Source of the DNA: Rhodococcus rhodochrous
GTDB lineage: Bacteria > Actinomycetota > Actinomycetes > Mycobacteriales > Mycobacteriaceae
Assembly: GCF_014854695.1 (NCBI RefSeq)
Contig: NZ_CP027557.1
Span: 2,480,001-2,544,000 of the forward strand
Direction: 5' to 3'
Length of the DNA: 64,000 nucleotides
The notes beneath the pieces were generated by a model. The model saw only the letters and a list, made by a program, of their open reading frames with translations, made no database searches and was not told where the DNA came from. Within the stretch, counting starts at the first letter, position 1, and every line of letters starts with the position of its first letter. Position numbers and translations under genes: made by a program. Positions 54,125-55,535 of this stretch are shown here, one piece after another.

Positions 54125-55135
54125 TCATCGGCGGCCGAGCATCGGCAGTGCCATCGCTACCACGATGAGACCGGCGCCCGCGGCGGCGAGCACGGTCACG
54201 GACTCTCCGAAGGCGACCATGCCGATCATCAGCGCGACCACGACCTCGAGGTAGGACAGGCCCGACAGTTCCGCGGCACGAAGGTGCTTGCCCGCAACGA
54301 CGAGCAGCCCCAGCGCGAACAGGCCGCAGACGACGAAGAACCCACCGGCCCACAACCAGTGCGTCGCGGTCATCCCCGACATGTCGGGTCGGGTCACCGC
54401 GACCATCCCACCTGCCGCGACGGCACCGAAGACGAAGTTCCACAGGGACCGGACGTCGGACGGCATATCGGTGCGATAGCGGTAGCACAGCAGGGCCCCG
54501 CCGTAGAAGACTCCCGAGGCCGCGCCCAGCACGGTGCCCAGCGTCTCGTGCTCACCCCCGGACGACCCACCGCCGACCAGACCGGCGGCGAGCAGCATAC
54601 CGGCGAACGCCGTGCCGATCGACAGGGCGTCGAGGCGACCGACCCTCTCCTTCAGGAACACCCGGGCGAGGGCCGTCGCGACGACGGGGCCGAGGTAATG
54701 GAGAACCACGGCACGGGACAGGTCGGTCAACACCGTGGCGGACAGATAGGTCGCGAGGGACAGTCCGAGGAGCACACCGCCACCGACGACCGACCAGGAC
54801 AGACGGGTCCGGCGCAACTGTCCGAGGCGGCGGGACAGCGCCATCAGGAGGAGCATGCCGAGTGCTCCGACTGCCATCCGTCCGAGCGTCAGTGCCTCAC
54901 CGAGCACCGCGCCTTCGGGAGTGGCCTTGCGGCCGAACAATCCTGCGGCGCCCATCGCGGTCGCGGACAGCACGATCGCGGCGATCCCGAGTCGCCGGTT
55001 CGTACGCGACGGCGACTTCGGGGCGGGGGAGGGAGGGAGAACAGGGCCACGCGACTCGGTCGGTGCAATATCGGCGCGCGAAGGCGCGCCCACGGCATCA
55101 TCGGCGCGCGAAGGCGCGCCCAGGGAAACGGTCAC
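54125..55135 (-). CDS. EamA/DMT-family transporter under a glycine riboswitch
   Basis: A 336-residue inner-membrane transporter with about ten hydrophobic segments arranged as two EamA repeats of five helices. DMT proteins of this class export amino acids and other small metabolites. The mRNA leader (55190-55365) is a tandem glycine riboswitch, which makes glycine efflux the most direct hypothesis. GTG 55135 (VTVSLGAPSRADDAVG) has GAGG 7 nt upstream. The N-terminal 20 residues repeat GAPSRAD twice, encoded by a short palindromic DNA repeat, so they are probably inserted and disordered. Confidence 0.85.
   Translation of the reverse strand: MTVSLGAPSRADDAVGAPSRADIAPTESRGPVLPPSPAPKSPSRTNRRLGIAAIVLSATAMGAAGLFGRKATPEGAVLGEALTLGRMAVGALGMLLLMALSRRLGQLRRTRLSWSVVGGGVLLGLSLATYLSATVLTDLSRAVVLHYLGPVVATALARVFLKERVGRLDALSIGTAFAGMLLAAGLVGGGSSGGEHETLGTVLGAASGVFYGGALLCYRYRTDMPSDVRSLWNFVFGAVAAGGMVAVTRPDMSGMTATHWLWAGGFFVVCGLFALGLLVVAGKHLRAAELSGLSYLEVVVALMIGMVAFGESVTVLAAAGAGLIVVAMALPMLGRR
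55070..55122. repeat. Duplicated palindromic element in the EamA N-terminus
   Basis: A 23-bp unit starting ATCGGCGCGC occurs twice at 55070-55092 and 55100-55122, 30 bp apart and in frame. Each copy contains the hairpin GGCGCGC-GAAG-GCGCGCC. It encodes GAPSRAD in both copies. It looks like a mobile or REP-type palindrome embedded in coding sequence. Confidence 0.7.
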
Positions 55136-55189
55136 ACGTCTACCTCGGGTCCAGGGTGCACGAAACGAGCACCAGCGGGTGTTGTCGTT

Positions 55190-55365
55190 CCCCGCTCTGT
55201 CATCGGACCTGAGAGCTTTCGCGGACGGAGCCGCTTACACCTTCGGTGAACCCGGAAGAGTTGCTTTCCAGAGGAGCCTCGCCGTGGCGGTCTGGGGGCC
55301 TGAGAGATTCCCGGGGAGGTTGCTCCTTCGGCGCCCGCTGTGTGCGGGACTCTCCCGCCGCGGTT
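55190..55365 (-). promoter_or_regulatory. Tandem glycine riboswitch
   Basis: On the minus strand, aptamer 1 shows GGGAGAGTCC, CGCCGAAGGAGCAA and CTCTCAGGC (55360-55295); aptamer 2 shows GGCTCC, CACCGAAGGTGTAA and CTCTCAGGTCC, ending in GACAGAGCGGGG (55278-55190). These are the conserved glycine-aptamer blocks, and the two in a row match the cooperative tandem class. It precedes the EamA gene by about 55 nt, with no other gene between. Glycine binding normally turns expression on. Confidence 0.85.
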
Positions 55366-55509
55366 CGGTGGCTGTTCAGTTGTGGCGTCAAGTATGCCAT
55401 GCGGCTCGATGCCGGTCTGTGAGGTCGTACCGGGGGTCGGGCATGTCTCGCATTTTGCCTGGTGAGAGGGCTGCCAGAAAATTCCAGCCGATACCTTCAC
55501 AAATATAGG

Positions 55510-55535
55510 CATAATTGCTATGGTGTGCATCACAC
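55510..55535 (+). promoter_or_regulatory. Candidate promoter and dyad of the catabolic operon
   Basis: An AT-rich stretch, rare in this region, has CATAAT at 55510-55515 as a −10-like box, followed by the dyad GTGTG-CAT-CACAC (55523-55535). It lies 100-120 bp before the CoA ligase start. I found no convincing −35. The rest of 55366-55631 shows no gene. Confidence 0.4.

Follow-up and report, generated by a model that had tools for sequence, protein, structure and literature searches.

Glycine riboswitches are described in PMC5829553, which cites reviews on this point, as raising the expression of genes for glycine cleavage or for a 'glycine export protein', and PMC4848308, citing Mandal 2004, likewise speaks of 'glycine export and catabolism genes'; the general idea of glycine export genes under riboswitch control is therefore not new. 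According to PMC6944388, the targets in Actinobacteria are 74% GCV and 22% other glycine metabolism, and an excerpt of PMC12452182 names glyA and serine dehydratase as targets. The closest described systems in terms of the RNA are the actinobacterial gcv tandems, represented by that of gcvP in the genome studied here and by those of gcvP and gcvT-gcvH in S. griseus. Transporter genes are also found under this control. According to PMC5829553, a sodium:alanine symporter gene of S. pyogenes is preceded by a tandem glycine riboswitch and repressed at high glycine, with uptake by the symporter being the hypothesis of its authors, and glycine transporter genes are given as the main riboswitch targets in Streptococci and some gamma-proteobacteria in PMC3766115, whose passages on these targets do not name DMT proteins.

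In terms of the protein, the nearest described case is SerE, a DMT protein of Corynebacterium glutamicum reported to be an L-serine exporter (PMC7260847, in part). SerE acts on serine and threonine, and its gene is divergent from, and controlled by, the LysR-type regulator gene NCgl0581. A riboswitch candidate is also found before an EamA gene in the ykkC subtype 2d RNAs (PMC7266159), but these belong to a different RNA class; that paper was the only one retrieved when glycine riboswitch and EamA were searched together, and the combination of glycine riboswitch with 'metabolite transporter' gave a general sentence only. No paper linking a glycine riboswitch with a DMT gene was found in this literature search, an earlier listing in a supplementary table being possible. 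The locus presented here joins a known riboswitch class to a DMT permease, apparently a new target family. It shares with the gcv tandems the Rfam family, the tandem order and the stronger aptamer 1, and differs from them in that its target is a permease rather than a glycine cleavage gene. It shares with the S. pyogenes symporter the tandem before a transporter gene, the transporter being of another family, and with SerE the description as a DMT/EamA-type amino-acid transporter of an actinobacterium.

Covariance-model searches with Rfam RF00504 identified the minus-strand interval 55187-55367 of the window (the whole 64,000-nucleotide stretch of DNA that was analysed) as a tandem glycine riboswitch with two aptamers (Table 1). 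The E-value was 8.9e-12 for aptamer 1 in the search against the window and 2.7e-9 for aptamer 2 in the search of the whole genome. Aptamer 2 was called by the latter and is not listed by cmscan of the window, probably because the two matches, being of the same clan, overlap by 4 nt and one of them was left out. The initial annotation had placed a tandem glycine riboswitch at 55190-55365 and proposed scoring it with the Rfam model; both aptamers lie above the gathering cut-off, and the coordinates were correct to within 3 nt. The two aptamers precede a single expression platform, and both halves of the leader-linker pattern, which we take to be a kink-turn from work on tandem glycine riboswitches, were matched in the window; two leaders, L043 and L044, carry one extra base in the leader half. 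On the 5′ side of the riboswitch, the CATACT hexamer varies among the upstream sequences compared, and no sigma-70-type site was found by a consensus scan of the riboswitch/permease leader region.

Table 1. Features of the riboswitch-permease locus (window coordinates).
Feature	Position	Strand	Basis
-10-like hexamer CATACT, putative promoter 5′ of the riboswitch	55391..55396	-	by eye, upstream sequences
Leader half of putative leader-linker kink-turn (GCCACCGA)	55365..55372	-	pattern in 32/34 leaders
Glycine aptamer 1	55278..55367	-	RF00504, 67.1 bits (gathering score 32)
Linker half of putative kink-turn (GAGGC)	55276..55280	-	33/34 leaders; L098 differs
Glycine aptamer 2	55187..55281	-	RF00504, 51.4 bits (above gathering score 32)
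Platform helix AGCGGG/CCCGCT re-using part of the aptamer-2 P1 3′ strand, possible P1 competitor	55174..55196	-	folding
Hairpin GGTGC...GCACC directly before the ribosome-binding site	55155..55173	-	lowest-energy folds
Shine-Dalgarno-like GAGG	55143..55146	-	read directly
EamA/DMT permease, 336 aa, GTG start	54125..55135	-	PF00892, E 3.9e-21

The riboswitch is located 51 nt upstream of the permease gene, whose GTG start at 55135 lies 7 nt past the GAGG. PF00892 matches the permease in two stretches, and the NCBIfam model 'carboxylate/amino acid/amine transporter' reaches 51.8 bits, far under its cut-off of 230.2. The predicted model of the protein contains ten helices with a mean pLDDT of 69; its best PDB match is 5i20 (TM 0.59/0.67), and the other top matches are nucleotide-sugar and phosphate translocators and the choline importer LicB. 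As modelled, the permease is an EamA/DMT transporter with the ten-helix DMT fold. An 18-nt self-complementary unit (GGCGCGCCTTCGCGCGCC) occurs twice at the start of the gene (55073-55120, minus strand). The copy number of the encoded unit varies among congeners, up to four in L043, the extra copies lengthening the variable N-terminal tail of the permease.

Two glycine tandems are present in the genome from which the window is taken (6.09 Mb, 4 contigs). The second of them, at G000:C1:3075519-3075721, precedes gcvP, as identified by TIGR00461 with 1324.6 bits. That this tandem of the window belongs to a permease and not to gcv, as the initial annotation had it, is borne out by this separate tandem of gcvP and by the conserved pairing with the permease. 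All 34 readable leaders of permease orthologues, counting that of the window, carry the riboswitch; compared over 180 nt, 27 of them are distinct. They were drawn from three collections (11/11, 13/14 and 10/10) with some duplicates between them; one orthologue, L049, starts at the edge of its contig, has no upstream sequence and was excluded from the leader count. The core pattern of aptamer 2 is likewise present in 34/34, the window leader counted. The pair occurs in Rhodococcus, Georgenia, Occultella, Oceanitalea and Cellulomonas, and the orthologues of the latter four genera, found in a search of named genomes, are 64-73% identical. In Georgenia satyanarayanai (L056:936-2048, minus strand), the unit of riboswitch and permease has an alanine dehydrogenase gene as its divergent neighbour.

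The window is placed in Rhodococcus by the leaders too, since that of L050, on a contig named as Rhodococcus, is identical to that of L041 from a genome of the window's genus. Within this genus, the permease is encoded by 14 of 18 genomes (E 1e-60). Thirteen of these 14 have two tandems, and the remaining one, G154, a 75% complete genome in which the permease is truncated at the edge of a contig, has a single tandem, as does each of the four congeners without the permease. In the 18 congeners, presence of a second tandem coincides fully with presence of a readable permease leader. In wider samples, the permease is encoded by 11/201 genomes and 1/31 genera of the family (E 1e-40), 1/200 genomes of the order and 2/394 of the class; when the order to which G708 belongs was searched, homologues were found in 19/396 genomes. 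The glycine riboswitch itself is present in 135 of 151 genomes of the family sample. Twenty-nine new family loci, the best-scoring ones and hence a non-random sample, comprise 23 with a gcvP homologue and six with an orthologue of the EamA permease. Additional tandems were inspected in five genomes from other genera: by reading, one each precedes glyA, gcvH and gcvT, the fourth has glyA within its first long frame, and the first long frame after the fifth gives no sensible protein.

The association of riboswitch and permease has a sharp boundary. The riboswitch is present at all ten homologues of 66-71% identity versus none of ten places in nine genomes at 35-51%, the latter being the next homologues found (43-51%) and one paralogue at 35%. 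It is also absent upstream of nine distant EamA relatives (0/9, taken from 11 distant loci), one of which, L061, has 199 bases upstream only. Such a patchy occurrence hints that riboswitch and permease have been transferred together, but the protein tree gives no proof of it. Monophyly of the window's genus is not rejected in that tree (p-AU 0.59), and no direction of transfer is claimed. A search for a plasmid origin found no permease (E 1e-30) in 72,556 plasmid records. The leader sequence is similar to 12 plasmid records, four of which were opened. In three actinobacterial plasmids (L088, L089 and L090; NZ_CP053546, NZ_CP096037 and NZ_AP024656), the similar leaders precede gcvP, and in two of them gcvT also; in a sphingomonad plasmid (L091), the similar leader precedes L-serine ammonia-lyase.

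The related clade that lacks the riboswitch is found in a different context. All nine of its genomes encode a homologue of amidinotransferase, versus 0/18 riboswitch-type genomes (E 1e-20). This gene adjoins the permease in eight of the nine (G803, G925, G1014, G927, G898, G1005, G771 and G874; L102, L104-L106, L108-L111); in the ninth, G891, some 3.9 kb separate the two, and the neighbours of the permease there are BCCT-like and basic-amino-acid-antiporter genes. Searches of Pfam and NCBIfam at E 0.001 left the homologue without a name. The best match of the G927 protein among PDB sequences is L-arginine:glycine amidinotransferase (1jdx, phmmer E 7.2e-83), with weaker matches to SxtG (6.7e-60), HsvA (3.2e-55) and inosamine-phosphate amidinotransferase (1.1e-46), and the homologues of the other seven genomes are 84-93% identical to it. 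Eight of the permease loci, that of G927 among them, also carry a TIGR00883/ProP-kind symporter gene, which stayed under the curated cut-offs where it was scanned; the G874 locus has in addition a creatininase, above its cut-off. The amidinotransferase homologue, the EamA permease and the ProP-kind symporter form an operon-like cluster, which could possibly be a bacterial guanidinoacetate pathway. The two permease branches are weakly supported (60/73 and 74/83) when outgroups are added; the outgroup rows of that tree are too distant and L111 is long-branched. Glycine would be the acceptor of the putative enzyme by homology, in which case this neighbourhood would be an independent link to glycine, and the two separate contexts, riboswitch and amidinotransferase neighbourhood, would connect the permease lineage to glycine. 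The neighbourhood would be compatible with glycine import or guanidinoacetate export as well as with glycine export.

Turning to the expression platform, the helix that overlaps P1 forms 5-8 contiguous pairs in all 22 leaders tested and is better than shuffles (p < 0.05) in three of them, and the hairpin before the ribosome-binding site was seen by eye in about 19 of the 22 lowest-energy folds. Platform energies are no lower than those of shuffles (z -2.4 to +0.5). A platform-closing helix GACAG/CTGTC (or GATGAC/GTCATC) was rejected: it reached p < 0.05 against shuffles in 9/22 leaders and showed no true covariation, its 5′ side being invariant. A consensus alifold of the leaders was set aside because conformers were mixed. 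No terminator-like site was found in 54950-55520, which makes control at the level of translation likelier.

Two questions follow for the function of this locus. First, does glycine turn the permease gene on or off? Second, what does the permease carry? The initial annotation had suggested a transporter that is responsive to glycine and may export it as a relief valve, in keeping with ON logic. A glycine-related substrate is backed by the 34/34 conservation and the amidinotransferase neighbourhood. The ON direction found no consistent sign in the free-energy calculations, in which the accessibility of the Shine-Dalgarno sequence with the aptamer-2 P1 forced versus forbidden showed small differences in both directions over the 22 leaders. 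An indirect indication comes from the aptamers. Between Rhodococcus and the other group (13 x 10 leaders), identity is 89.0% for aptamer 1, 79.3% for aptamer 2 and 55.2% for the platform, and the Rfam score of aptamer 1 exceeds that of aptamer 2 in each of 32 tandems (14/14 permease-type and 18/18 others), a difference that may partly reflect the model. As reported in PMC6944388, aptamer 1 is the conserved one where glycine cleavage is regulated and aptamer 2 where transport is, the transport targets there being from Bacilli, Vibrio and a random set, not from actinobacteria. By this rule, the permease riboswitch would resemble a cleavage-type switch. A cleavage-type glycine switch is reported to activate in S. 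griseus (PMC5829553, in part; title cited in PMC5666159). From this activation together with the cleavage-type asymmetry, and thus by analogy, ON logic is favoured.

We propose that the tandem riboswitch responds to the glycine level in the cell and that, when this is high, more would be made of the product of the single DMT permease gene in whose leader it lies. Control would be exerted on translation, where P1 of aptamer 2 may compete with the downstream helix just before the ribosome-binding site. The permease would then carry glycine, or a compound closely derived from it, out of the cell and so provide an overflow route alongside GcvP, the glycine cleavage enzyme that is also under riboswitch control. 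We regard this proposal in full as evenly balanced. Its computed support consists of the tandem aptamers, their placement, the conserved pair, the co-occurrence within the genus and the amidinotransferase neighbourhood. That the transporter is glycine-linked is likely; glycine export would be the best reading of the sequences, and export together with ON logic is plausible.

An alternative interpretation, to which we give appreciably less weight, is that glycine serves as a signal only and that the permease exports some other product accumulating along with glycine, for instance serine, guanidinoacetate, creatine or a one-carbon by-product. SerE, as a described exporter of serine and threonine, fits this alternative, and so does the related clade, whose permease lies near an amidinotransferase homologue that could, by homology, make guanidinoacetate, near the ProP-kind symporter and, in G874, near creatininase. 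However, since the amidinotransferase is absent from all 18 riboswitch-type genomes, guanidinoacetate is an unlikely cargo there, and the cargo would most simply be the sensed ligand. Somewhat less probable still is uptake of glycine or a precursor by the permease, with the riboswitch as an OFF switch that stops uptake once glycine is abundant. The repression of the S. pyogenes symporter, the prominence of glycine transporter genes in Streptococci and some gamma-proteobacteria and the fold shared with the importer LicB agree with uptake; against it, the conserved aptamer is aptamer 1, the reverse of what has been published for transport targets, and SerE, a known actinobacterial DMT amino-acid carrier, is an exporter. 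That the riboswitch is a passive leftover no longer controlling the gene is highly improbable, for although the platform has only 55% identity between the two groups and its switching resisted modelling, both aptamer cores persist in every leader, aptamer 1 keeps 89% identity across distant genera, and riboswitch presence tracks the permease gene.

We consider it conceivable, at somewhat under even chances, that a DMT lineage is specialised for glycine or its direct derivatives, with the riboswitch branch as the glycine-gated exporter and the related branch in the clusters of amidinotransferase homologues. An identified glycine carrier would fill a gap, as the phrase 'glycine exporter' was not found in the literature searched. 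Here the riboswitch points to what a permease of no other known identity is likely to carry, and glycine export can be tested directly and cheaply. As a transport target under a GCV-like riboswitch, the locus is a test case for the rule that the type of target sets which aptamer is conserved, and the permease is a good candidate for a glycine export valve in Rhodococcus and its relatives.
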